NCBI GenBank assembly: GCA_021781555.1 | Contig: JAJXWQ010000029.1 | Location: 1-40,585 of the forward strand | From: a bacterium | GTDB lineage: Bacteria > Cyanobacteriota > Sericytochromatia > S15B-MN24 > VGJW01 | Length of the DNA stretch: 40,585 nucleotides | Reading direction: 5' to 3' | Shown: one piece after another, positions 2,602-30,525 of the stretch | Layout of the letters: every line of letters starts with the position of its first letter | Position numbering within the stretch: the stretch's first letter is position 1 | Program-made: the position numbers and the translations under genes | Notes under the pieces: generated by a model | Databases searched by the model: none | What the model saw: the letters and a program-made list of their open reading frames with translations, nothing else | Told to the model about the DNA's origin: nothing

Positions 2602-3540
2602 CTAGAGGATGATGACCACCGAGACGCCACCCTTGGTCCAGGCTTGCTTGAGCTCCTGAAGGCCGGCGTCCGAGACCAGCAGGTCCGAGTGGGTGCTCCC
2701 CGCTGACCGCTCGACCATGAGCCTGAGGGCGTGGCCGCCCGCGATATCGACCGCCCCACCCATCGTGTGCACGTACGCTACCGGCGGTCGGCTGGCCAGG
2801 CCCTGGCCGGCGATCGAACGGATGGACGGCGCCAGCGCAGGCTGTGCCCCGGTGTTGCGAGCGTCGAGGATGATCCCGGTATAAGGCGATCCCCCGACCG
2901 GCATGGAGGAACTCGAGTCCGAGGCGAAGACGATCGGGGAGGGCTCGTCGTGGAGCACGGCCCCCGCCAGGCCATCCTGGCCGAACAGGGGCATGCGGAG
3001 CGTGACCTCGACCGAGCCGTCCGGCAAGACATGGGTGTCGGTGGTCTGCGCCTGTGCGATGCGCTCGTTGACCGCAGCGCGGACGTTGTCGTCGGAGACG
3101 GCGAGATCGTCGACGGTGGCATCGCCGTTGACACGGATCCGGTCGACGATCTCGGAGAGCTCCCGCATGGCGTCGTCCATGGCGTAGGCCTGGGCAACCT
3201 TCCGCCGGACGAGCAGGGCCCCGCGATCGGGCGAAACGCCGATGCCCATCACGGTGATCACGCGCTTGGTCCAGTTGATGGTGTCGGTGAACGGAGCATC
3301 GCTCCCCACCGACGGCGTGGTGCCAGCGATCTCGACCAGCGCATCCGAGGGTGTGTCGAGCGCCCCGGAAATGCCCCGAGACCGGCGCAGAGCGGCGCGG
3401 GCCGGCACCTTGGCGCGCGGGATCGAGTGCCTGGCCACGGGCCGGGCGCGGTGCGGAATCCCCCCTGCCGCCGCGGAGCCTGCGGGAAGGGCGCAAACCG
3501 TCGCAGCCAGCAGGACCAGGGCAAAAGTGCGAGAGAGCAT
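2602..3540 (-). CDS. Exported LPP20-like protein
   Basis: A 312-residue secreted protein of unknown function. The first 25 residues form a Sec signal peptide (basic start, leucine/alanine core, cleavage near GSAAA-G); no lipobox cysteine is placed for acylation. The central part, with a VITVMGIGVSP strand, an Ala-rich helix, a RVNGDATVDDL segment and a TLRMPLFG strand, resembles the LPP20/FlgT-N-like fold seen in periplasmic and flagella-associated proteins. A second segment, YTGIILDARNTGAQPALAPS, is the companion motif found after it in many of these proteins. It is divergent from the RidA-family gene. A TATAAC word at 3546-3551 (minus) sits too close to the ATG at 3540 to be assigned confidently as a promoter. 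Family call is from pattern recognition. Confidence 0.62.
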   Translation of the reverse strand: MLSRTFALVLLAATVCALPAGSAAAGGIPHRARPVARHSIPRAKVPARAALRRSRGISGALDTPSDALVEIAGTTPSVGSDAPFTDTINWTKRVITVMGIGVSPDRGALLVRRKVAQAYAMDDAMRELSEIVDRIRVNGDATVDDLAVSDDNVRAAVNERIAQAQTTDTHVLPDGSVEVTLRMPLFGQDGLAGAVLHDEPSPIVFASDSSSSMPVGGSPYTGIILDARNTGAQPALAPSIRSIAGQGLASRPPVAYVHTMGGAVDIAGGHALRLMVERSAGSTHSDLLVSDAGLQELKQAWTKGGVSVVIIL

Positions 3541-13156: not shown

Positions 13157-13260
13157 TAGAGTGCTCCCGGTTTGAATGGATCGAGCCCGATGAGTCAAAC
13201 GGGGCCCGGTTGCGCAGCGAAGCGACCGCGCAGAGGGCCCCGTTCAAACTGCAAAAGGCC
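13157..13260 (+). repeat. 104-bp dispersed repeat, tandem copy A
   Basis: Begins TAGAGTGCTCCCGGTTTGAA and ends GCAAAAGGCC, directly abutting copy B. Contains inverted arms AACGGGGCCC and GGGCCCCGTT flanking a GTTGCGCAGCGAAGCGACC core. Differs from copy B at two positions out of 104. Confidence 0.95.
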
Positions 13261-13364
13261 TAGAGTGCTCCCGGTTTGAATGGATCGAGCCCGATGAGTC
13301 AAACGGGGCCCGGATGCGCAGCGAAGCGACCGCGCAGAGGGCCCCGTTCAAACTGCAAAAGGTC
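13261..13364 (+). repeat. 104-bp dispersed repeat, tandem copy B
   Basis: Second unit of the doublet, followed by TAGA. The arms are at 13302-13311 and 13339-13348. The word GTTTGA at 13274 can pair with TCAAAC at 13299 or at 13348, so two alternative folds are possible. It lies 61 bases upstream of the M23 peptidase start. Confidence 0.95.
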
Positions 13365-14305: not shown

Positions 14306-16843
14306 TCACTGCGCCCGGTCCGCCTTGGCCCCCGGCCAGTCGGTTCGGGGCACCAGCCGGCGGATCTCGTCGGACAGGGATTCGAGGCTCACGGCGCCCT
14401 TCTGGATGACCCGCTTGACGCTGCCATCGAGCTGCTCGCGCTCTGCCCTTGAAAGGTCCTTCGCCGTCAGCACGATCACCGGGATGTCCCGCCAGTCGTC
14501 TCTGCCCCTGAGGGCCGCCGCGAACTCGAAGCCATCCATCACGGGCATCATCAGGTCGAGAATGATGAGCTCGGGCCGGAGTTCCTCCAGGCGGACCATG
14601 CCCATACTGCCGTTTTCGGCCTCGACCACCGACCAGCCGGACTTCTCGAGCATCCGCCGCATCATGCTCCGGCTCGCGACATCGTCCTCGACCAGCAGGA
14701 TGCGGCGACGGCCCTTGTACTCGTCGAGCACGGCCCGCAAGCGCTCGAGGTCGACCGGCTTGGTCACGTAGTGGGCCGCTCCGAGCGCGTAGGCCATCTG
14801 CTGATCGTCGAGTACCGAGACCATGATCACCGGAATGCTGGCCAGTTCGGGATCCGCCTTCAGCCGGCTCAGGACCGTCCAGCCATCCGTTTCTGGCATC
14901 ATCGCATCCAGGGTCACGAAGATGGGCTTGAGTTCCCGGGCCATGCGGATCCCCTCGTCTCCGCCCCGGGCGATCGCGACCTGGTAACCGAGCATCCCCA
15001 GGTTGTGCTTGAGAATCTGGCAAGAGACCATGTCGTCGTCCACGACGAGGGCAAGGGGCTGGTTCTGCCGGGTGGGACCCTCGTCGGGCCGCTCCCTCTC
15101 TTCGACCTTCGGCGCGCCACCAGCCGGCAAGCGGATCGTGAAAGTAGAGCCCTGGCCGGGCTCGCTCTCCACCGACACGTCTCCACCCATCATCTGGCAG
15201 AACCTGCGGGTAATGGCCAGCCCGAGCCCCGTTCCGCCGAACTCCCGCGTCGTGGAGGCATCCGCCTGGGTGAAGGCCTGGAATAGCTTTGCCATCTGCT
15301 CCGGGCTCATCCCGATGCCGCTGTCTCGAACGCGAAAGTGGATCTCGGAACCCGAAATGCCGACATCCAGATGGACGCTGCCGCCACGGGTAAACTTGCT
15401 GGCGTTGCTCAAGAGGTTCAGCAGGGACTGACGGAGTCGCATGCGATCGGCATGGATGGCCTCGATGTCGTCGGGACAAGCAACCGTGAAAACATTCGCG
15501 TTCTTTTCCATCAAGGGCGAGATCGTCGCCACGATGTCGGAGATCATGTCGGGAACCGCGATGTTCTCCGGGCTGAGCTCCATCTTGCCCGCCTCGATCT
15601 TCGACAGGTCGAGGATGTCGTTGATCAAGGCCAGCAGGTGCTTGCCTGCGGACTGGATCTTCCGGGAATCGGCGGCCATCTCCTCCTCGCCCCGATCGGC
15701 CAGCTCTTCTTCGAGCATTTCGGAATAGCCGATGACGGCATTGAGCGGCGTGCGAAGCTCGTGGCTCATGTTCGCAAGGAAGATGCTCTTGGCCGCGTTG
15801 GCCTCCTCGGCCACCGACCTGGCCTCGGAGAGTTCATCCAGGATCCGCTTTTGTTCCGAAAGATCGTGAATCGTCTCGATGGCCCCCAGAGTGGAGCCAT
15901 CGGGACCCACCAGGCTGCAGGCGACGGCCTGGGCCCACACGGGACGACCTCTGACGAAGATCTCGACCTCTGCGGTCAACATGTGGCGCCCGGATCTGAC
16001 CGTCTCGTACTTCTTCAGGAATTCCTCCTCGGGGTTGCGCAGGAGATCGATCAGGGTCGGCCTGCGCAGACCATAGAACGGAATGCCATGCTCGAAGTTG
16101 CCCTTGCCGATGATATCGGCGGCCCCGTATCCGGTCATTTCTTCCGCCGCCCGGTTCCAGGCCGTCACGACGCCGTTGTTGTCTATGACGAAGGTGGGAT
16201 CGGGGAGATTGTCCAGGACGCCCGCGAGGTAATGCCGTTCGGCCGCCAGTGCCGCCGAGGCTGCCTTCTGCCCCGTGATGTCGATGGCCGCGGCCACGAA
16301 GCCGGTGAGCGTGCCGTCGTTCCCTCTAAGGGGCGTGATCGAGAGGTTGACCGGAACCCGCCGGCCATCCTTGCGAACGTAGGTCCACTCCTCGAGGCTC
16401 GATTGTCCATGGATCGCCGCTTCGACCAGCAGCTCCTCGGCACCGATCGGGCGCCCCACGGTCCCGGTGAGTTCCCGGGCGTGCTGCTCGATCTCGGCGC
16501 GCAGATGAAACTCCATAGCCAGCATCCGGCCCTCGACCTCGGACGCCCGGTAGCCCAGCAACAGCTCGGCCCCCCGGCTGAAAAGGGAGACCTTGTTATC
16601 GAGGCCCGCCACGATGATCGACACCTGCGACGCGGCGTCGAAGATGGCCTCGCGCTCGGCCTTGGCGTGCTGGATCCGGGCCAGCACGTGTTCGGTCTGC
16701 TCGAACTGCTCGACCACCAGCTGGGCGCTGACATCCGCCGCCTCGCGAGCCGTCCGCAACTCGCTCCGCAGCAAGGCATTCTCCTCGCGGAGCGCCGCAA
16801 GTTCCAGGCTCGGGGAATCACCAGCAAAGTGGCTGACAAGCAT
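14306..16843 (-). CDS. Hybrid sensor histidine kinase with two PAS and two receiver domains
   Basis: An 845-residue cytoplasmic hybrid kinase: coiled coil (about 12-65), PAS 1 (64-195), PAS 2 (204-332), HisKA with the phosphorylated His 361 in [12 protein letters not shown], HATPase_c with N, G1 (DSGIGM) and G2 (GTGLGL) boxes, then two receivers. Receiver 1 has VVDDD, the acceptor Asp in LDAMMP and a KP motif; receiver 2 has LVEDD, LDLMMP and a C-terminal IQKGA in place of KP. The start is ATG 16843, which has AAAGGTGAG upstream; a GTG four codons earlier is possible. It overlaps the hydrogenase maturation protease gene by 26 bases and is the last gene of the hydrogenase operon. With no membrane segment, its input must be cytoplasmic, and the hydrogenase encoded upstream is an obvious candidate (inference). 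Confidence 0.9.
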
Positions 16844-17426
16844 GGATCTTCTCACCTTTGACGAGCGCCAGGCACAGGGAGACGGCCTTTTCCACAGCCG
16901 CCTCGCCGACCGGGGGCTCTAGCCCGACCAAGAGAATTTCCGCAGGCAATCGCTCGAGAACGGCGGGAAGGGCGCCCAGGAGGTAGGGCAAGCCCCCGTC
17001 ATGGCCGTAGTGAACCCCTTCCGCACGGCCGAGCGCGACGGTGCAATCGTACAGCGTCACCTGGCCCGGATCGGACAGCCCGCTGGTCGCGTCGACCAGA
17101 ATCACGCGGCCAGCCTCCTCGAAATGCCCGAGCAGTCCCAGGCCCGCCAGGCCGGCATCGATCACCTGAACACCCGAAGGCAGGACGCCCCTGGCCAGCC
17201 GGTCATACACCAGCCAGCCCGCCCGATCTTCCGGGATCAAGGAGTTCCCCAGGCACAGGATGCGGGTCGGCGCGGACGGCCCCCCCGCAAAGGCGTTGCC
17301 AGCCCCAACGACGCGAGCACCGAGCGCGTCCGGTGGCGGGTCGCGCAGAGGCACGGCGCCGCTGTCGTTCGTCGCCCACCCACGATCGACCAACCGCGAC
17401 TCAAACCTGCAACGTAGCCCTGCCAA
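16818..17426 (-). CDS. Hydrogenase maturation protease (HybD/HycI family)
   Basis: Endopeptidase that removes the C-terminal tail of a NiFe hydrogenase large subunit after the metal centre is inserted. The core begins at [13 protein letters not shown] (acidic nickel ligand after the GN motif), continues with [14 protein letters not shown] (second acidic ligand) and [16 protein letters not shown] (His ligand), and ends with [12 protein letters not shown], in family order. The start is uncertain: the TTG at 17426 overlaps the large-subunit gene by 26 bases, and a GTG at 17354 would shorten the protein by 24 residues; the first 50 residues are outside the conserved core. Its position directly after the large-subunit gene, and the tail left on that subunit, show that this hydrogenase is matured by cleavage. 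Confidence 0.85.
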
Positions 17427-18939
17427 GGCTCTGTCCTCCCCGAACGGCGTGAACGCTGCAAACCAGGCAGGGATCGAACGAGCGGATCACGTGGCCGACC
17501 GCGACCGGGTTGTCGGGATCCGCAATGGGCGTACCCAGCAGAGCCTCCTCCCAGGGCCCCCTGATTCCGGCAGAATCGCGGGGTGAGGCATTCCAGGCCG
17601 TCGGTGTGATGATCTGGTAACGCTCGATGCGCCCGCCGGAAAGGGTGATCCAGTGCCCCAGGGCCCCACGAGCGGCCTGGGTGAGGCCAGCCCCCCTGCC
17701 GTCGGTGATCTCGCCCGGGGGGTTGTAAAGCTCCACGGTCTCGGCCTGCAACAGCTCCTCGAGCCAGGTGTCGAGAGCATCCATGAGGCTCGCCGGTCGC
17801 ACCAGGCGGGCCAGCTCTCGGATCACGGCGTCCGGACCGCCCCGGCCCACCAGATCCGAGAACAGGGGATTCCCTGCCATCAGGAACTCGGCCAGGGGAC
17901 CGGTTTCCGCCGGAAGTCCCCGATAGCGTGGCGCCTTGGCCCAGGAGTAGCGCCCACCATCGGGACCGCTCGCATAGGGTCGGGTGAGGCCCTCGAAAGG
18001 GTGCAGCCCACCCTCGTAGCCCTCGAACCAGGAGCTGGCGATGTGCTCGGTGACCTCGCCCTGGTCGAAGGGCGCAAGGGCGCCGTTCTGGATGAATCCG
18101 GCCGCTATCAGCGTGGCGGAGGGCGCCTTGACCCTGGTATCTGCGGGCAGGTCCAGGGCCCCGAAGGAGAGGAAGTTGCCATGGCCGCGCCCGAGGCCGG
18201 TGAGGCCGGCCTGGCGGGCAAAGCGCAGGAAGAATCCGACCTCGCTGTCGCGCTGGGAGGGATTCTCCTCGAGCCAGGCATCCAACCCGGCCGCCGTCCC
18301 GACCTCGCGCCAGCGCTCCACGCTGCAGCCCAGGACCTTCTGCTCGTACCAGGAGCGGAAATCGCGCACGATCTGGCGGCACCGCATGAGGCCGATGCGA
18401 TCTGGAGCGTGGACCACCCCCCCGGGAACCATGTAAGAGGAGTGCGGCCACTGGCCTCCGATGAGACCGATGATATCGAGGAGCTTCTTCGTCTGCTGCA
18501 GGGTTTCGATGCAGCTCGAACCGCGCAACGGGGTGTACCGGGCGACGGCCTCGTCGAACATGGGGTGGGCACGATAGGCAGAAACCGCGAAATCCACCAT
18601 GTACATCAGCACCGCCTGGCGGATATCGCTCTGGATATGCTCGGCCATCAAGGCGACGTTGCGCAGGCGGACGGCATCGCCCGGAATCTTGGCCCCGCTC
18701 GCGTCGTCGAGGGCCCGCACCGCCGCGGTCAGGTGGGTGGTCGAGCAGATACCGCAAACCCGCGGTGTGATGACCAGGCCATCGAGGGCACCCCGATCGA
18801 TGAGCAAGTTCTCGATGCCGCGATACATCGTACCGGCGCTCCAGGCGTCCACAACCACGCCATCGGCCACTTCGACCCGGATCTCCAGATCGCCCTCAGC
18901 CCGATTGAGCGGTATGTCGAGAATTCGGCGTTCTCCCAT
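17401..18939 (-). CDS. hupL: NiFe hydrogenase large subunit
   Basis: Catalytic subunit of a NiFe hydrogenase, which oxidises or senses H2. The 512-residue protein has both cysteine motifs that hold the NiFe(CN)2CO centre: RVCGICSTTH (C62, C65) and DPCLVCSVH (C491, C494, H497). A 15-residue tail follows His 497, matching the maturation protease next door. The L0 motif reads RAEGDL where most enzymes have RxEGH. No Tat or membrane signal. The ATG at 18939 follows the small-subunit stop by 5 bases. With its partner it most resembles group 2 (cytosolic, cyanobacterial-type uptake or sensory) enzymes. Pure sensors of the HupUV/HoxBC type lack the tail, so this is not one of those. The symbol is used by resemblance. 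Confidence 0.92.
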   Translation of the reverse strand: MGERRILDIPLNRAEGDLEIRVEVADGVVVDAWSAGTMYRGIENLLIDRGALDGLVITPRVCGICSTTHLTAAVRALDDASGAKIPGDAVRLRNVALMAEHIQSDIRQAVLMYMVDFAVSAYRAHPMFDEAVARYTPLRGSSCIETLQQTKKLLDIIGLIGGQWPHSSYMVPGGVVHAPDRIGLMRCRQIVRDFRSWYEQKVLGCSVERWREVGTAAGLDAWLEENPSQRDSEVGFFLRFARQAGLTGLGRGHGNFLSFGALDLPADTRVKAPSATLIAAGFIQNGALAPFDQGEVTEHIASSWFEGYEGGLHPFEGLTRPYASGPDGGRYSWAKAPRYRGLPAETGPLAEFLMAGNPLFSDLVGRGGPDAVIRELARLVRPASLMDALDTWLEELLQAETVELYNPPGEITDGRGAGLTQAARGALGHWITLSGGRIERYQIITPTAWNASPRDSAGIRGPWEEALLGTPIADPDNPVAVGHVIRSFDPCLVCSVHAVRGGQSLGRATLQV

Positions 18940-18944
18940 TTCGT

Positions 18945-19883
18945 TCAGACCCGGTTCTGCCTCTCGGTGAGTCGCTCGGGAGCCGCCACGGCGGCCATCC
19001 CCTTGTAGACCATGTAATGGGCGCGTCGAACCCCCGGCGGAAGGTTCAGGGGAATGCCCTCCACGTTCGGAGTGACGAAGAAGGGCGATCGCTGGGGGAA
19101 ATCAGGCTCGGTGCACCCGAAACAGGGAACGCCCACCCTGGGCTTGGACGTGCCCTTGCTCCACAAGAGCTTGTTGCAGGGTCCGTAGGCCAGCGGGCCG
19201 TGGCAGCCCATGTGGAAGAAGAGGCAGCCCCGGCCTCCGAAATCCTGCTCTTCGACCCGAAACTCGTGATACTCGTTTCGACTGCAGCCCTGGTGCACCA
19301 GCGTACCGAACCACTCGAGGGGACGATTCAGCCCATCGAGGTCGAGCCGGACCCCTTCCGCCAGCGCGCTCAGCGCCCCGAGGACGACCTCGGCATGCAC
19401 CGGGCAGCCGCTCAGGTTGAGCACCGGCAAACCCCGAGCACTGCGAAATCCACTCCCGAGGAACCCACCCGGCTCGTGGCCCTTGAACTGCAGGCCGGTC
19501 GCCTCGATCTCGGCGCCAACGCCCAGGCCGCCGAAACTGGCGCAGGTGCCGGCTGCCACCACGAACCCGGCCCGGTGTGCCAGCTCCGCGATCAGATCCT
19601 TCTTGGGCCGACCGTTCCACCGGTCAAAGAGGCCCGTTCCGGCCGGTCCGCGAATGACGGCCCCCTCCACGACGAGGACATCGAGCGGTCGCCGGCCCGA
19701 GATGATGGCGTCCAGCAGCGCCTGGTGCTCGCCAGCCGACAGATTGGACAGGGAAGGATGCCACAGCACCTCGATATCCAGAGCCGACAGAAGGTCGAGC
19801 AGGCTCGGCGAACTCGCGCTCAGCAGCGCCATCGTGTCGCCCCCGCAGCCCCCGGATTGCAGCCAGTAAACGGAGAACGACAT
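18945..19883 (-). CDS. hupS: NiFe hydrogenase small subunit, cytosolic type, Asp at a proximal-cluster position
   Basis: Iron-sulfur electron-transfer subunit of the NiFe hydrogenase, 312 residues. It begins directly with the cluster domain (MSFSVYWLQSGGCGGDTM) and has no Tat signal peptide, as in group 2 hydrogenases. The usual CxxC at the proximal cluster is C13-GG-D16, so one cysteine ligand is replaced by aspartate. The other proximal ligands appear in AAGTCASFGG and NLSGCPVH; medial and distal ligands in HQGCSRNEY, GGRGCLFFHMGC and VPCFGCTEPDF. The LWHPSL motif (about 40-45) is typical of the cyanobacterial group. The ATG at 19883 overlaps the stop of the adenylate cyclase gene by one base (TGATG), tying hydrogenase synthesis to that of the signalling protein. 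Confidence 0.92.
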   Translation of the reverse strand: MSFSVYWLQSGGCGGDTMALLSASSPSLLDLLSALDIEVLWHPSLSNLSAGEHQALLDAIISGRRPLDVLVVEGAVIRGPAGTGLFDRWNGRPKKDLIAELAHRAGFVVAAGTCASFGGLGVGAEIEATGLQFKGHEPGGFLGSGFRSARGLPVLNLSGCPVHAEVVLGALSALAEGVRLDLDGLNRPLEWFGTLVHQGCSRNEYHEFRVEEQDFGGRGCLFFHMGCHGPLAYGPCNKLLWSKGTSKPRVGVPCFGCTEPDFPQRSPFFVTPNVEGIPLNLPPGVRRAHYMVYKGMAAVAAPERLTERQNRV

Positions 19884-21481
19884 CAGCGCCCTACTTTCCC
19901 TGCCGGGCCCTCGGCGATCAGAAAGGTTTCCATCTCACCCTTGCCCTTGATATTGATCACGCCGCGCCGCTCGATGGGAAAGCGATCCCCCAACCGGCTG
20001 GCCGTCTCGGCAGAGACGTGAATGCGTCCGGGGATGCCGTGGGATTCCATACGCGAGGCCACGTTCACCGTGTCGCCCCAGACGTCGTATGCGAACTTGT
20101 GAGCCCCGATGACTCCCGCAACGACCGGCCCCGAATGCACGCCAATGCGCATGGAGAAATCTCGGCCGGCCGCGGTGCTGAAGCGGGCGACCGCGGCGAG
20201 CATCTGCTGGCTCAGTTCGATGCAGGCGGCCGCGTGATCGGGACGTGGCGCGGGGAGACCCGCCGCCACCATGTAGGCATCTCCGATCGTCTTGATCTTC
20301 TCGACCTGCAGACGGGTCGTGATGGAGTCGAGCTCGAAGAACAAGCGGTTGAGATCGTCCACCAGCTCCTGGGCGCTCACCTTGGCCGATATCGCGGTGA
20401 ACCCGACCAGATCGGCGAAGAGGATACTGACGTCGTCGAACCGATCCGCGATGCGGTGCTCGCCGGCATGCATCCGCCGGACCACGCCGGCCGGCAGGAT
20501 GTTGAGCAAGAGAGTCTCGCTCTTGCGCTTTTCCTCCTCGATCTGCTGCAGGTACTTCCGCTCCCGATCCCGAGCCTGCTTGCGCTCCAGGGAGGAGTCG
20601 ATCCTGGCCGAGAGCAGGGTCGGGTTGATCGGCTTGGGCAGAAAATCTTCGGCGCCGGCCTCCAGACAGCGCACGACACTCTCCATCTCGCTGAAGGCCG
20701 AGATCATGATGACGGGAATCCCAGCGGTTGCAGGCTGTTCCTTGAGCTTCATCAACACCTCGTAACCGCTGATGCCCGGCATCATCAAGTCGAGAAGAAT
20801 CAGGTCGTAGGCGTGCAAGCCCGTCATCTCGAGAGCGCGCTGCCCGCTCTCGGCGATGTCGGCACGCTGACCCTCCTTTCGCAACCGGCGCGCCAGGAGA
20901 TCCCGATTCGACTCGTTGTCGTCCACCACGAGAATGCGACCGGGCAAGGCTTTGCGGCCCACCTGCAGGGAGGAGCTCCGGAGGATCTGCTCCAGGGGCG
21001 CCACCAGCACGTCGCTGTTGAGAGCCGAGCTATGCTCGGCATCTCGCGAAAAATCGATGAGCGTCTCGAGCTGGTCGAGAAGCCGGCTCGCCTCGTCGAG
21101 CATGCGCTCCAGGTCCGGCACCATGCCTTCGATCCCGAGGAAGACCGCATCCTCGATGAGCATCTCGCAGTAGCCCTTGACCGCACTGAGCGGCGTCCGC
21201 AGATCATGGCGAATGGCTGCCTGAGCCGCCTCCGGGTCGTCGCCGCCCAGCACATCGGCACCCCGGTCGGGGTCGAGCAACAACCAGGACAGGTCCGCCA
21301 GGAGGCGTGCGGAGGAGTAGATGCGATCGAAATCGTTGATCAGGCTCTCGGTGCCGCTCTTGAGGGCCTCTTCGAAGAGCATCTCGGCGTAACCGAGCAA
21401 CGCCGTAACAGGAGCCATGAGATCTTGCCGCATGTTGGCCAGGAGAGCGGCCCTGGCCCAGTTCTCGCTTGCCCCCAACAT
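19883..21481 (-). CDS. DHp-DHp-receiver-class III adenylate cyclase
   Basis: A 532-residue signalling protein. Domains: a degenerate HisKA-like helix pair (about 12-65, Gln 19 in place of the phospho-His), a second HisKA-like pair with an intact His 92 in RHDLRTPL, a receiver (182-300; acidic pair 187-188, acceptor D231, K283), a coiled coil (300-330) and a class III cyclase (345-515). No HATPase_c domain is present. The cyclase has both metal aspartates (D357 in FADLVGF, D401 in TIGDAYM), the adenine-selecting pair K395 and D466 (YDVWG) and the transition-state residues N473 and R477, so an active homodimeric adenylate cyclase is predicted. Start ATG 21481 lies 18 bases after the response-regulator gene; a TTG four codons earlier is possible. 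Its stop overlaps hupS. Confidence 0.88.
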   Translation of the reverse strand: MLGASENWARAALLANMRQDLMAPVTALLGYAEMLFEEALKSGTESLINDFDRIYSSARLLADLSWLLLDPDRGADVLGGDDPEAAQAAIRHDLRTPLSAVKGYCEMLIEDAVFLGIEGMVPDLERMLDEASRLLDQLETLIDFSRDAEHSSALNSDVLVAPLEQILRSSSLQVGRKALPGRILVVDDNESNRDLLARRLRKEGQRADIAESGQRALEMTGLHAYDLILLDLMMPGISGYEVLMKLKEQPATAGIPVIMISAFSEMESVVRCLEAGAEDFLPKPINPTLLSARIDSSLERKQARDRERKYLQQIEEEKRKSETLLLNILPAGVVRRMHAGEHRIADRFDDVSILFADLVGFTAISAKVSAQELVDDLNRLFFELDSITTRLQVEKIKTIGDAYMVAAGLPAPRPDHAAACIELSQQMLAAVARFSTAAGRDFSMRIGVHSGPVVAGVIGAHKFAYDVWGDTVNVASRMESHGIPGRIHVSAETASRLGDRFPIERRGVINIKGKGEMETFLIAEGPAGKVGR

Positions 21482-21499
21482 CCCGCTGCCCAAGCTCCG

Positions 21500-22085: not shown

Positions 22086-23519
22086 CTACCGTTCCTGCTG
22101 CAAGGGACCGGGTGCTGCCGCGACAAGCCAGCCTCCCTGCGGAACCAGACGAACCTGCCAGAAGGCCTCGATGCCGGAGCGTAGCGCCTCGTCGGCAACC
22201 AAATAACCCGCGATCGACCAGGTCTGCCGGGTCCTGGCATTGAGGCCCGGATGGCCCTCGCTGTCGTAAAACTCGGCCCAGAAGGGCGGCAGCCCCGAGC
22301 TCGCGACCGCCAAGGCGCGGGTGGCCAGTTCGCCCCGGCCGCTGGCCAGGCACGCCGCCACGAAGGACCAGAGGATGTACGGCCAGTGCCCTCCGTTGTG
22401 ATAGCTGCCAGGCCGCGCCCGGGCATCTCCGTCCATCCAGATTTCGTAGTTGGGACCCGTCAGGCTGGGCCAGCACACGGTGACGGGCATGCAACCGATG
22501 AGATCCTCCCAGCGAGCGGCGATGCCACCCATGAGGGCCTCGATCCGCGGCTCCGAGAGAATGCCGCTGACGGCCGCCAGGAGGTTGGGAAAGGGCCAGA
22601 GGCGGGTGTCGAGGTGCCGGGTTCGCAAGGTACCCCCGAGATAGCCGCAGCCGGGAGGCAAGGTCGCGATCGCCGGCCGGAGCCTGGAATAGTCGATGTT
22701 GAAGGGATTGGGATTGTCCTTGCCATGGCCCTCCGGCGCGAGGAGCTCGCGATCGTCGACCGTCTGGCGATCGATCCAGTACCAGCGGTTGATCCAGGAC
22801 TGGAGCGCCTCGGCCTCCAGGCGGCACCACGCGCCGATCTCGGAGCCTGCTTCGAGGTAATCGAGGAGCCGGGCCGCCCACCTGAGTGCCAGGGCCAGGA
22901 GCACCTGAAGCTGCAGAGGATAGCCATAGAGGCCGGCCGGGCGATCGATCTCCGTGACGGACTCGGGCGCTGCCATGAGAGGAAGGGGGTCGAACCGCGG
23001 TGCGACCAGCAGGCCGAGGGCCGCTTCCAGGGCCTCGCGACGGGCCCGGAGCCAGTCAAGATCCTGCGTCGTCTCGACGAAGAGCCCCACCAGGATGACG
23101 AACCAGAGGGTGGAATCGACCGAGTGCACCGCACCGATCGCCTCCTCGCCGCCGTAATCCACCGCGTCGTAGCGCGGGGAGAAGCCGATGGGCATCAGCC
23201 CGTAGGTGCGGCGAAGACGGGATTGGCGGCGGATCAGGGCATCGAGGAAGAGTCCCACGATGCTGGGGTCGTACCGCAAGAAGAAGAGCATCGGGCCGAC
23301 GTTGTCCCGGGTCCACACGTTCGCGTAGTGGCTGGTGGGATCGTCCTGGCACGCGATGGTGCCACAGGGCTCCCCGCGCTCGTCCCGGGCCAGGGCGCCG
23401 AACAGCAGCTCGATCGCTTGATCCCGGACCGCGCTGCCGACCTGGTCGTGCTCTTCCACCTGCTCGTCAGTGCCTTGGTCGCAAGGTGCGGAGACTCTGC
23501 AGTTCGCCTTCCAGGCCAT
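22086..23519 (-). CDS. GH100 alkaline/neutral invertase-like glycoside hydrolase
   Basis: Cytosolic enzyme of glycoside hydrolase family 100, which hydrolyses sucrose to glucose and fructose and is known mainly from plants and cyanobacteria. The 477-residue protein has the family landmarks in order: GEPCGTIAC, NVWTRDNVGP (catalytic Asp region), AVHSVDSTLWFVIL, the DRPAGLYGYPLQLQVL helix, NPFNIDYSRL, GYLGGTL, the SYHNGGHWPYILW motif and the QTWSIAGYLVA tail. No signal peptide. The start is uncertain: ATG 23519 lacks a good ribosome-binding site, and a GTG about 20 codons later would also keep the fold. It lies 133 bases downstream of the sucrose-phosphate synthase-like gene on the same strand, so synthesis and breakdown of sucrose are encoded together. 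Specificity for sucrose is inferred from family and context. Confidence 0.8.
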   Translation of the reverse strand: MAWKANCRVSAPCDQGTDEQVEEHDQVGSAVRDQAIELLFGALARDERGEPCGTIACQDDPTSHYANVWTRDNVGPMLFFLRYDPSIVGLFLDALIRRQSRLRRTYGLMPIGFSPRYDAVDYGGEEAIGAVHSVDSTLWFVILVGLFVETTQDLDWLRARREALEAALGLLVAPRFDPLPLMAAPESVTEIDRPAGLYGYPLQLQVLLALALRWAARLLDYLEAGSEIGAWCRLEAEALQSWINRWYWIDRQTVDDRELLAPEGHGKDNPNPFNIDYSRLRPAIATLPPGCGYLGGTLRTRHLDTRLWPFPNLLAAVSGILSEPRIEALMGGIAARWEDLIGCMPVTVCWPSLTGPNYEIWMDGDARARPGSYHNGGHWPYILWSFVAACLASGRGELATRALAVASSGLPPFWAEFYDSEGHPGLNARTRQTWSIAGYLVADEALRSGIEAFWQVRLVPQGGWLVAAAPGPLQQER

Positions 23520-23652: not shown

Positions 23653-24882
23653 TTAGCGCGCAGCGCCTCGCAGAACCGGGGATTCGAGAGCGTCCTGGTA
23701 GACCGCCAACATGCGCTGGGCAACACCGGGCCACGTGTACGAGCGAAAAGCGCGCTCGCGCCCTGCGCTTCCCAGACGCTCTTTGAGTGCCGGATCGGAA
23801 AGGATGCGCGCGATCGCGGCAGCCAGGCGGCGAACATTGCCAGGTTCGACCAGGATGCCGTTCTCGCCATCCTGGATGGTGCAAGCGAGGCCGCCCGTGC
23901 GGCTCGCCACCACCGGGCTCCCGCACGCCATGGCCTCGAGCGCGACCAGGCCGAAGCTCTCGTAGTAACTGGGCACGACCGTGACATCGGCAGCCGAGTA
24001 GTAGCGGCCCAGCCGAGCGTGATCTACCGCCCCGAGGAACCGGATCCGATCCTCGAGACCGAGGTCCCGCGCAAGCTCCTTGATGCGCTGGGCTTCGGCC
24101 TTGTCCGGCGAATCGGGACGCACCCCGCCGATGACGACCAGCTGGACGTTCCACCGTCGTGCCAGCAGCTGGGTGGCCCGGAGCAACCCGGCGAGGCCCT
24201 TGTTGGGGTCGAAACGGCCTACGAAAAGCAGCACGCGGTCCGCGGGATCCAGGCCGGCCTCGAGCCGGCAGCGCTCCCGGTCGAGTGGCTGGAACCGCCT
24301 GGGGTCGAACCCGCAGGGCACGATCGCCACCTTCCGCGCACGGTAGAGATTCGCGAGGTTGGTCGCCTCCCTGCGGTTCGTCGCGACCAGCAGGCTCTCT
24401 CGAGCCAGTTGCTCCTCGGTGGCAAAGCGATCGGTTGCATCGGGCAGCGGGAACCCAGCAGCCACCTTGACCCGGCCCAGGGAGTGGCTCGTGTGGACCA
24501 GCGGGAGGCGGCGCCGGGCGGCCAGCTTCAAGCCGACCCAGCCAGCCAGCCAGTAGTGCGAATGCACCAGATCGTACCGGGGAAGCTCGGGCCACGTGTC
24601 CTCGAGTTTCTCGAGAAAGCCCGGCAGCTTGTCCCAGAAGGCATGCCTCCCGACCTGGCGAGGCCGGCTGATGGGGATGCGTACCACGCGGCAGCTTGGA
24701 CCGAAGGACTCGGCCTCGGTCCGGGATCCCGCAAGGTTCTCCGTGAACACGTCCACGGCCGTGCCGGCGCCGGCGAGACTCCGCGCCAGTTCCCGGACAT
24801 AGACGTTCTGCCCGCCGGCGCCCTCGCACCCCACACTTGCCGTGGGATCTCCGTGCAACGAAATCATGGCGATACGCTTCAT
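23653..24882 (-). CDS. GT4 glycosyltransferase, probable sucrose-phosphate synthase
   Basis: A GT-B fold glycosyltransferase of family 4. Sucrose-phosphate synthases transfer glucose from UDP- or ADP-glucose to fructose-6-phosphate. The 409-residue protein starts MKRIAMISLHGDP, followed by GGQNVYVRELARSL, the donor-domain LLFVGRFDPNKGLAGLL and the E-x7-E element in ESFGLVALEAMACGSPVVAS. The GGQNVYV N-terminal loop is typical of bacterial sucrose-phosphate synthases and of MshA-like enzymes. Proximity of a sucrose-phosphatase (26319) and an invertase (22086) decides for the former; mannosylfructose-phosphate synthase is an alternative. ATG 24882 gives the normal N-terminus; 17 codons upstream in frame are ignored. 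It is divergent from the LysR-RCK_C regulator across 80 bases and is presumably controlled by it. Confidence 0.78.
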   Translation of the reverse strand: MKRIAMISLHGDPTASVGCEGAGGQNVYVRELARSLAGAGTAVDVFTENLAGSRTEAESFGPSCRVVRIPISRPRQVGRHAFWDKLPGFLEKLEDTWPELPRYDLVHSHYWLAGWVGLKLAARRRLPLVHTSHSLGRVKVAAGFPLPDATDRFATEEQLARESLLVATNRREATNLANLYRARKVAIVPCGFDPRRFQPLDRERCRLEAGLDPADRVLLFVGRFDPNKGLAGLLRATQLLARRWNVQLVVIGGVRPDSPDKAEAQRIKELARDLGLEDRIRFLGAVDHARLGRYYSAADVTVVPSYYESFGLVALEAMACGSPVVASRTGGLACTIQDGENGILVEPGNVRRLAAAIARILSDPALKERLGSAGRERAFRSYTWPGVAQRMLAVYQDALESPVLRGAAR

Positions 24883-24912
24883 GTTCTCGTTGTACGCTCG
24901 CCGCCGTGGAAT

Positions 24913-24960
24913 GATAACGCTTCTTGAAAACAATTGGGCTCATATATTAGAGTTGCTAAT
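24913..24960. promoter_or_regulatory. Divergent promoter region with LysR-type operator
   Basis: An AT-rich island in the 80-base gap between the GT4 and LysR genes. A perfect inverted repeat ATTAG-N5-CTAAT (24946-24960) fits the T-N11-A LysR box and ends two bases before the LysR ATG. Plus strand: TTGAAA (24924-24929) and TATTAG (24945-24950), 15 apart. Minus strand: TAATAT is a good -10 for the GT4 gene. The operator overlaps both -10 elements. Confidence 0.6.
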
Positions 24961-24962
24961 GT

Positions 24963-26213
24963 ATGCACCTCCGCTACCTCGAGACCTTCGCGGCCGCCGT
25001 GGATCAGGGATCCTTCACCAAGGCGGCCAGGAGCCAGCACCTGACCCAATCTGCGGTCAGCCAGCAGATCAAGGAGCTCGAGCAGTGGCTGGGCTTGCCG
25101 CTCTTCGAGCGGCACGGCCGGAGCACGCTTCCAACGGACGCCGCCCGGCGCTTTCGCGAGCAAGTCGGCACCATCCTGGCCCAGGTGCAACTGGCGCGGG
25201 AAGAAGCTCGCGGCTTCGAGGACGGCAGCGTCGGCCACCTGGCGATCGGGGCCACCTATGCGGTCGGAACGTTCCTGGTTCCGGGTCTTCTCAAGCGCCT
25301 GCGCCAGCGGGGGAGCAAGCTCCGGATCTCGGTCGACTTCGGGACCGTCCAGTACCTGGCCCAGCTCCTGGCCTGGCTCAAGCTCGACGTGGTGCTGACG
25401 GACTTTCCCCTGTCCCGACGAGACCTCGGCTCTCTTAGCCAGGAGCCTCTCGCCGACGACGAGATCGTCCTGGTCACGCGGGCCAACCACCCCTGGGCCC
25501 GATCCGGCCTTCCGATCGCCCCGGCCCAGCTCCGCGACGTCCCGCTCTTGCTGCAACCCGCCCCGTCGACCACACGGGCTCTGGTTCTGCGATGCCTGAG
25601 CGAGGCAGGGGTCGACGTCACCTCCTTGTGGGTCGAACTCGAGCTCGGGAATACCGAGGCACTCAAGCGTGCCGCCCGCGAGGGGCTCGGGCCGACGTTC
25701 GTGTCGCGATACGCGGTGGAATCCGAACTCGCCGCGCTCCAGCTGGCGATCGTCCCGATCGCCGGCGTCGAGATCCGCCGCAAGCTCTGGTGCCTGACGG
25801 CGATGCCCGAGCACCGACCGAGCCGAGCGCAGCGCTTCCGGGAATTCCTCTTCGAGGTCTTCGAGAACTTTCGCCTCGACAGCCACCGCTTCGCCGAGGC
25901 GCTCCAGACGGCCGGCCTGGGGCTCGAAGCCCCAGGGGCCACGCTCGAAGAGACCCGCCCGGACGTGGTTGCGCTCCTGGCCTCATCTCGCCGCCAGGAA
26001 GCCGTGGTGGAGACGACCGTCGGCAGTGCGGCCAGCCGGCAGACGATCGCCAGTCTCGGGTTGCCGGGCGACTGCCTGGCCATCCTGCTCCGGCGCGGGC
26101 AGGATGTCCTGGTGCCCAAGGGAGACACCCGGCTCGCAGCCGGCGACCGCCTCACCTTCCTGGGCCGGGCAGACGCGGTCGAGGCGGCCCGGCGCCAGAT
26201 CGAGCATTCCTGA
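24963..26213 (+). CDS. LysR-type regulator fused to an RCK_C (TrkA_C) domain
   Basis: A 416-residue transcription regulator. Residues 1-60 are a LysR winged helix-turn-helix (MHLRYLETFAAAVDQGSFTKAA, with QSAVSQQIKELE as recognition helix); about 88-295 is the LysR ligand domain. Unusually, about residues 340-412 form a complete RCK_C/TrkA_C domain, with VVETTVGSAASRQTIASLGL, ILLRRGQDVLVPKGDTRL and AAGDRLTFLG, a fold that binds nucleotides including c-di-AMP in KtrA, CpaA and BusR. Standard LysR proteins end near residue 300. The ATG at 24963 gives the canonical N-terminus but has no ribosome-binding site, and a -10-like element lies about 13 bases upstream, so the mRNA may be leaderless. It divides the sucrose-phosphate synthase gene (divergent) from the sucrose-phosphatase gene (convergent). 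Confidence 0.87.
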   Translation: MHLRYLETFAAAVDQGSFTKAARSQHLTQSAVSQQIKELEQWLGLPLFERHGRSTLPTDAARRFREQVGTILAQVQLAREEARGFEDGSVGHLAIGATYAVGTFLVPGLLKRLRQRGSKLRISVDFGTVQYLAQLLAWLKLDVVLTDFPLSRRDLGSLSQEPLADDEIVLVTRANHPWARSGLPIAPAQLRDVPLLLQPAPSTTRALVLRCLSEAGVDVTSLWVELELGNTEALKRAAREGLGPTFVSRYAVESELAALQLAIVPIAGVEIRRKLWCLTAMPEHRPSRAQRFREFLFEVFENFRLDSHRFAEALQTAGLGLEAPGATLEETRPDVVALLASSRRQEAVVETTVGSAASRQTIASLGLPGDCLAILLRRGQDVLVPKGDTRLAAGDRLTFLGRADAVEAARRQIEHS

Positions 26214-26281
26214 GCCGCTGGATGCCTGGCCCTTCTCGGGGGGGCCGAACGCCACGACCCGCCTGCCCGCGCGGATCCGTA

Positions 26282-26318
26282 TCTTTTGCAGTGTGAACGG
26301 GTCCCTCTGCGCGGGCGC
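26282..26318 (-). repeat. Partial copy of the 104-bp repeat, reverse orientation
   Basis: CTTTTGCAGTGTGAACGGG then TCCCTCTGCGCGGGCGCT matches the reverse complement of the repeat's 3' end with a few substitutions. It abuts the stop codon of the sucrose-phosphatase gene (26319-26321), in the 105-base gap between two convergent genes. A GGCCC/GGGGCC pair at 26228-26246 nearby could be a weak bidirectional terminator. Confidence 0.7.
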
Positions 26319-27092
26319 TCACCAGCCGAGCTGCGCCAGACCCTCGAGAATTCCAGCCGCCGCGAAGCCCTGCGCCCGATATGCGCGACTTCCCAGCCCG
26401 GCGAGCAGTCCTGGCGTCGCGTTGCCCACCGCGATCGCATTACGGCCTCCGGCCAGCATCTCCAGGTCGTTCTCCGAATCCCCGCACGCAGCCGTCCGCT
26501 CCTCCGGGATGCCAAAGCGGCGCTGGAGGTAGACGTTGGCATTGCGCTTGCCGGCCCGTGCCGGCAGGACATCGAGCAAGTTGCCCGTCTGCACCAGCTT
26601 CGCGTCGACCCCGGCAGCCGCCAGGGCCTCGGCCAGTGGCGCCAGATCGACTCGCGACCGGAGCTCGAAACTCTTCTTGAGCTCCGTCTGTGCGACATTC
26701 TCCTGCCAGGCGAGGGAGTTGCCATACCCGCTGCCGATCTCCGCCACTGCGATCGCGTTCCAGCGCCAGGAGACGAAATCCCGCCAGGCGGGATCCGGGC
26801 CGGATTCGCTCTCGTAAGCGATCTCCGTCCCGAGGCCCGTCACCAGCACGTCGGGCCAGGGCAGCTCGGCCGCGACCATCAGCTCATCGGCCGAGCGTCG
26901 GGTCCGCCCGGTGTTGAATACGAGCACGACCTCGGACTGCCGGGCCGAGATCCAGTCGAGCAGTCGCCGGGTCGCGCCGACTTCCCCGACCAAGGTGCCA
27001 TCGAGATCGCAAACCAGCATCCGCCGGCCGGGCCCGGATCCCGCTTCATTGCTCATGGCTGGCATGTCCGCGCGTCGCCCCCCGCAGGGCAT
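26319..27092 (-). CDS. Sucrose-phosphate phosphatase-like HAD hydrolase
   Basis: Cytosolic HAD-superfamily phosphatase of the sucrose-phosphatase type, which dephosphorylates sucrose-6-phosphate and completes sucrose synthesis. Motif I is MLVCDLDGTLVG (nucleophile D29, acid D31), motif II FNTGRT, and motif IV ACGDSENDLEML. Between them is the family cap region with DVLVTGLGTEIAYE, SWRWNAIA, LVQTGNLLDVLPA and GKRNANVYL. 257 residues from the ATG at 27092 (GAGAG upstream); ATG 27056 is an alternative close to the conserved core. It converges on the LysR-RCK_C gene. Mannosylfructose- or glucosylglycerol-phosphatase are related alternatives, but the nearby GT4 and GH100 enzymes favour sucrose. 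Confidence 0.82.
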   Translation of the reverse strand: MPCGGRRADMPAMSNEAGSGPGRRMLVCDLDGTLVGEVGATRRLLDWISARQSEVVLVFNTGRTRRSADELMVAAELPWPDVLVTGLGTEIAYESESGPDPAWRDFVSWRWNAIAVAEIGSGYGNSLAWQENVAQTELKKSFELRSRVDLAPLAEALAAAGVDAKLVQTGNLLDVLPARAGKRNANVYLQRRFGIPEERTAACGDSENDLEMLAGGRNAIAVGNATPGLLAGLGSRAYRAQGFAAAGILEGLAQLGW

Positions 27093-27139: not shown

Positions 27140-27209
27140 GTCAAACGGGGCCCGGTTGCGCAGCGAAGCGACCGCGCAGAGGGCCCCGTTCAAACTGCAA
27201 AAGGCCTAG
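27140..27209 (+). repeat. 104-bp repeat, truncated copy
   Basis: The last 70 or so bases of the repeat, from GTCAAACGGGGCCC to AAAAGGCCTAG, identical to copy A over this length. The 5' third is missing, replaced by unrelated sequence. On the minus strand its terminal CTA supplies the TAG stop of the EF-hand lipoprotein gene. Confidence 0.95.
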
Positions 27210-30410: not shown

Positions 30411-30525
30411 AAAGGTCTAGAGTGCTCCCGGTTTGAATGGATCGAGCCCGATGAGTCAGACGGGGCCCGGTTGCGCAGCGAAGCGACCGCGCAGAGGGCC
30501 CCGTTCAAACTGCAAAAGGTCTAGA
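30411..30525 (+). repeat. 104-bp dispersed repeat, copy after the MFS gene
   Basis: Full copy at 30418-30521 (TAGAGTGCTCCCGG to GCAAAAGGTC, then TAGA), differing from copy A by single bases such as GAGTCAGACGG for GAGTCAAACGG. It is preceded by AAAGGTC at 30411-30417, the terminal word of another unit, as if one member of a former tandem pair was lost. Confidence 0.95.

Follow-up and report, generated by a model that had tools for sequence, protein, structure and literature searches.

A LysR-type regulator with an RCK_C tail of apparent antiporter origin at a sucrose-synthesis locus in the Cyanobacteriota

Within a 40,585-nucleotide stretch of DNA from a Cyanobacteriota genome assembly (the window), a gene placed among those for sucrose synthesis encodes a LysR-type protein that continues into a C-terminal RCK_C domain. 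We propose, with a probability of about 0.5, that this protein is a local regulator of sucrose metabolism whose tail derives from a neighbouring CpaA-like antiporter, and that the RCK_C domain adds an ionic or turgor input. The combination is a real, selected domain architecture, a variant of the RCK_C-regulator idea that is unreported in the literature found. The genomes compared here probably represent a non-photosynthetic class of the phylum. The sucrose genes around the regulator are as follows.

22086..23440, minus strand: alkaline/neutral invertase of family GH100, start approximate (PF12899, 3.2e-83)
23653..24882, minus strand: sucrose-phosphate synthase (SPS), a GT4 enzyme (6kih, 1e-87)
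26319..27026, minus strand: sucrose-6F-phosphate phosphatase (SPP; S6PP, PF05116, 3.6e-51)

The regulator gene lies between SPS, with the neutral invertase beyond it, and SPP; SPS and the invertase are divergent from the regulator, and SPP faces it. The nearest match of the GT4 enzyme is the cyanobacterial sucrose-phosphate synthase Tll1590 (6kih), and assignment as MshA was ruled out because that match scores lower (about 1e-64). Together with the S6PP match, this upholds the statement in the first-pass annotation that the flanking genes make and dephosphorylate sucrose phosphate. Two of its gene starts were revised: that of SPS, from 24933 to the ATG at 24882 as the most probable start, since homologues begin at an equivalent, conserved Met, and that of SPP, from 27092 to near 27026. 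The invertase, the next gene past SPS, was missing from it. Further along the minus strand, the window also encodes a fusion of HisKA, receiver and class III adenylate/guanylate cyclase domains (19883-21493), which adjoins genes for the small and large subunits of a [NiFe] hydrogenase (16818-19883); genes for a HycI-type maturation protease and a PAS/receiver hybrid kinase follow downstream.

The regulator itself is made up of these parts.

24963..26213, plus strand: LysR-RCK_C fusion regulator, 416 aa (Pfam HTH_1, LysR_substrate and TrkA_C)
24969..25148, plus strand: LysR winged helix-turn-helix, residues 3-62 (HTH_1, PF00126, 4.6e-23)
25224..25862, plus strand: LysR effector (substrate-binding) domain, residues 88-300 (LysR_substrate, PF03466, 2.5e-38; Foldseek 8sbf and 5y2v)
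25872..26009, plus strand: linker of antiporter origin, residues 304-349, disordered over part of its length in the model (alignment to the RCK_N end of CpaA-like antiporters)
26010..26198, plus strand: TrkA_C/RCK_C domain, residues 350-412 (PF02080, 2.2e-12; profile and Foldseek matches)

Each of the three domains scores above its Pfam curated cut-off within the one 416-aa open reading frame, as expected from the original description of a complete LysR protein followed by TrkA_C/RCK_C. An AlphaFold2 model of the whole regulator (mean pLDDT 86) consists of a LysR body, a partly disordered linker with low pLDDT within residues 304-344 and a folded RCK_C domain, so the tail has both the fold and the TrkA_C match that define RCK_C/TrkA_C membership. 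The LysR part likewise shows the features of its family, namely an N-terminal HTH_1 followed by LysR_substrate and a T-N11-A dyad upstream of a divergent gene. The best full-length Foldseek matches are 8sbf (ACIAD0746) and 5y2v (CcmR), and the top sequence and fold matches assign the LysR part to the CcmR/YeiE-like regulators, in which ligands are bound by the effector domain. A complete LTTR body and a T-N11-A box between divergent genes are thus shared with the CcmR/YeiE/CbbR-like regulators, but the RCK_C tail occurs in none of the matched structures.

The fusion was found in one of the 386 genomes searched across the phylum, including all 18 examined in the class, in a search that scored up to nine candidates per genome and could therefore miss a case in LysR-rich genomes. 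A plasmid search returned no LysR-RCK fusion, and the near-full-query matches inspected there run on into a neighbouring annotated gene; a public genome scan for close homologues gave just two LysR matches, both weak and partial. No report of LysR combined with RCK_C or TrkA_C was found in a literature search.

A frameshift or assembly artefact as the source of the fusion was ruled out because a diverged copy, 78% identical, is present on another contig, so the fusion is genuine. This contig of the same assembly, C12, carries the same four genes in the order invertase-SPS<>LysR-RCK/SPP, with identities to the window copy of 75% (invertase), 65% (SPS), 78% (LysR-RCK) and 54% (SPP). The outer flanks of the two copies differ, copy 2 lying between a ClC chloride channel gene and an Na_H_Exchanger gene. 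Positions 86-7745 of C12 (locus L034) form an ion and osmolyte island of ClC, invertase, SPS, LysR-RCK, SPP and a cation/proton antiporter. The RCK_C domain (80% identical) and the LysR part are equally conserved between the copies, and the linker is freer to vary (66%); the dN/dS of RCK_C is about 0.14, like that of the LysR part, and by this comparison the tail is under purifying selection.

The tetranucleotide composition of C12 matches that of other contigs (r 0.96-0.98). A foreign origin of C12 may nevertheless be considered because the contig is without a 41-bp repeat of which about one copy would be expected in its 10.6 kb, given an assembly total of at most about 360. This near-palindromic element, GGGGCCCGG...AGAGGGCCCC, occurs in the window at 13201-13241, 13305-13345, 27147-27187 and 30462-30502, and in the 3.8-Mb assembly there are 187 forward and 176 reverse matches with three mismatches allowed, some sites perhaps being counted on both strands. 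It is often grouped at intervals of about 104 bp and located at contig ends. A same-genus genome has two copies, so the element is almost absent there, and 17 further relatives have none; the element appears to be a recent REP-like expansion.

The intergenic region between SPS and the regulator contains a candidate operator and promoter.

24941..24965, strand not assigned: putative LysR-type operator with 10-bp arms, a 5-bp spacer and a T-N11-A core (from sequence comparison)
24924..24953, plus strand: sigma-70-like promoter of the regulator, TTGAAA-18-TAGAGT (consensus match only; overlapped by the putative operator)

A T-N11-A motif alone is uninformative, with 1290 matches within the window. 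The putative operator, CATATATTAG-AGTTG-CTAATGTATG, has arms complementary at 9 of 10 positions, and mononucleotide shuffling reached this value 20 times in 2000. In the second copy, 15 of the 17 positions of the core (24945-24961) are identical, versus 32 of 62 in the remaining intergenic region, and the spacings from the box to both starts are the same in the two copies (71 nt to SPS, measured from the centre, and 2 nt to LysR-RCK). With up to three mismatches allowed, the core has no match in the assembly outside the two LysR-RCK/SPS intergenic regions, and the operator was not found in the upstream regions of the relatives G004, G002 and G001. The arm complementarity and the conservation in the second copy substantiate the site marked earlier at 24946-24960. 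A dimer or tetramer of the regulator would be predicted to bind this box and to control the divergent SPS-invertase genes; it would also be expected to repress its own gene, whose -10-like hexamer and start codon are overlapped by the box.

Sequence comparison also points to the source of the tail. Residues 304-414 of the regulator can be aligned to positions ~505-623 in CpaA-like antiporters (Na_H_Exchanger, TrkA_N and TrkA_C) from the same family of organisms, with 40-43% identity and E values down to 9e-18. Because this alignment already starts within the last part of RCK_N, the linker is of antiporter origin as well. In a tree, the tail and the antiporters from its own family cluster together (support 100/98). 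We infer that the RCK_C tail was acquired by gene fusion with a CpaA-like cation/proton antiporter, the antiporter tail having replaced or extended the C-terminus of a LysR regulator.

Related genomes contain arrangements of the same genes in which the LysR protein has no tail. In G004, from a related genus, a tail-less LysR gene ends at 3182 and is followed 6 bp downstream, on the same strand, by an antiporter gene that begins at 3189 and is truncated by the contig end; SPS and SPP there run divergently from LysR. The G002 antiporter is located between the invertase and SPP-SPS. In G001, from the same genus, the gene divergent from a tail-less LysR encodes a ClC channel with 77% identity to the one beside copy 2. 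The linkage to sucrose genes, loss of which the first-pass annotation had named as grounds for abandoning its idea, is thus kept in both fusion copies and with the tail-less LysR of the related genus. The tail's origin in an antiporter, the second copy and the ion-transport genes around that copy are additions to what was noted before. In another genome, G005, LysR genes of the same clade are tandem duplicated (locus L041, 1099-3058).

The simplest reading of these arrangements would be that the antiporter body was lost from a LysR-antiporter pair at an ancestral sucrose locus. An equally possible alternative is fusion with an antiporter copy of the type kept elsewhere in the source genome, on contig C68, because the tail is nearer to this full-length antiporter, whose RCK_C is the closest to it by identity (47-49%), than to the G002 antiporter. 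The retention of the C68 antiporter, and the tendency of RCK_C domains to pair with each other, would also fit a tail that assembles with an RCK gating ring or an antiporter RCK_C and relays transporter state by protein contact, but tethering at the membrane would impede DNA binding, and we consider such a relay highly improbable.

These gene neighbourhoods also bear on what sucrose is for. The regulator could be an ordinary regulator of carbon metabolism, with sucrose as a carbon store turned over by invertase rather than an osmolyte and the antiporter association incidental; the neutral invertase does belong to the cluster, and sucrose has multiple roles in cyanobacteria. Against this, antiporter or ClC genes adjoin LysR or sucrose genes in four contexts (C12, G001, G002 and G004), and it is the balance of Sps and invertase that sets the sucrose level of cyanobacteria under salt (PMC6753628). 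We therefore regard a purely carbon-related role as unlikely and prefer that of a regulator with an ionic or turgor input.

If the tail is a sensor, c-di-AMP is a plausible ligand. The source genome encodes the diadenylate cyclase CdaA (DAC, 1.1e-41, plus a CdaA_N domain), the type of enzyme for which the first-pass annotation had suggested a search, and 17 of the 18 genomes of the class have a diadenylate cyclase, although c-di-AMP (ydaO) riboswitches were found in 0 of the 18. The best PDB matches of the RCK_C profile were TM1088B, SaCpaA, SaKtrA, BsKtrA and KtrC, and the last four are reported c-di-AMP receptors (PMC10243994, PMC12453120). When modelled alone, the tail gave as best Foldseek matches TM1088B (3jxo) and the RCK domain of Staphylococcus aureus CpaA with c-di-AMP (4ys2, 5f29); the RCK_C of BusR was at rank 50. 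The tail is of the short-loop CpaA type, its loop being two residues shorter than that of KtrA. S. aureus CpaA, of the same type, is among its nearest solved relatives in sequence and fold and shares its whole-protein architecture with the antiporters that have the tail, but it is a membrane antiporter with RCK_N and RCK_C, and its RCK_C is about 24% identical to the tail; the likeness described here is one of overall sequence and fold.

The polar ligand contacts of KtrA are not preserved. KtrA binds c-di-AMP through Ile163, Ile164, Asp167, Ile168, Arg169, Ala170, Asn175, Ile176 and Pro191 (PMC7288161); in an alignment with 4xtt, the polar contacts Asp167, Arg169 and Asn175 are Gly, Pro and Leu in the tail. 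The tail belongs to the same RCK_C family as the gating subunits KtrA, KtrC and TrkA but has neither their long loop nor this Asp/Arg/Asn set, and the regulator, being without RCK_N, is no channel subunit. The polar pocket residues of BusR (the pocket comprising Asn157, His160, Ala164 and Thr165) are likewise unmatched. The second-messenger switch for osmolyte synthesis proposed in the first-pass annotation is therefore favoured by the cyclase and the conserved sucrose linkage and weakened by the loss of these contacts, which are those of KtrA and BusR and not of the short-loop CpaA type to which the tail belongs, and we put the chance that the tail binds c-di-AMP somewhat below even.

The lost contacts would also suit a tail that is a ligand-free oligomerisation module, stabilising a LysR dimer or tetramer in which the effector domain alone senses (for example, a sugar phosphate or 2-oxoglutarate). 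RCK_C domains dimerise by nature, and that of BusR is a dimer in isolation without ligand (PMC8517857), and a CcmR/YeiE-like LysR part brings a ligand-binding effector domain of its own. Oligomerisation of LysR proteins needs no such tail, however, and the RCK_C core, as conserved as the LysR part, keeps the VPxGDT/GDRL segment as in the antiporters and SaCpaA, which leaves this explanation rather unlikely.

It is also conceivable, but quite unlikely, that the tail senses another ligand, for example NAD(H) or a different nucleotide, or else a cation. Its Foldseek neighbours also include Vibrio TrkA, MthK (Ca2+) and GsuK (NAD), and we know of no ligand for TM1088B, the closest sequence. Organisms not expected to have a cyclase also carry similar RCK_C domains, an example being E. 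coli, which has TrkA_C domains and showed no DAC in the search controls. RCK proteins have their NAD/ATP site in RCK_N, however, nearly all of which is missing from the regulator, and among short-loop structures with a bound ligand the nearest is the CpaA/c-di-AMP complex.

The closest functional parallel is BusR, another DNA-binding protein with a C-terminal RCK_C domain and linkage to compatible-solute genes. BusR combines a GntR-type winged HTH, a coiled coil that acts as a ruler and RCK_C, and is activated by c-di-AMP to repress the glycine-betaine uptake genes busA; it has no effector domain, whereas the regulator described here has a LysR HTH and an effector domain, and its candidate target is synthesis rather than uptake. 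In BusR and CpaA, c-di-AMP is received through RCK_C (PMC8517857, PMC10243994): it strengthens DNA binding by BusR, reducing osmolyte uptake (PMC8517857), and activates K+ export by CpaA (PMC10243994). In the mechanism proposed here, the LysR effector domain would read a metabolite and an RCK_C dimer would supply a second, ionic or turgor signal, most likely c-di-AMP. By analogy with BusR and CpaA, high c-di-AMP (high K+ or turgor) might lower sucrose synthesis, this direction being a guess. A c-di-AMP-responsive LysR protein, born by antiporter-tail fusion and coupling the K+/turgor messenger to transcription of sucrose-synthesis genes, is thus a tentative proposal, possible rather than probable.

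Control of sps transcription in cyanobacteria, including by salt signals, is largely unknown (PMC6753628), and an antiporter sensor tail on a regulator beside sps provides a concrete, testable link to such signals. Should the tail bind c-di-AMP, the BusR principle would then cover the synthesis of solutes as well as their uptake, and the fusion would show how sensors can arise when a regulator fuses with a neighbouring transporter. To our knowledge, no LysR-type RCK_C regulator was known before, and this one would then be the first. At the level of sequence, the locus suggests that sucrose production in this bacterium may be tied to the salt and potassium state of the cell.
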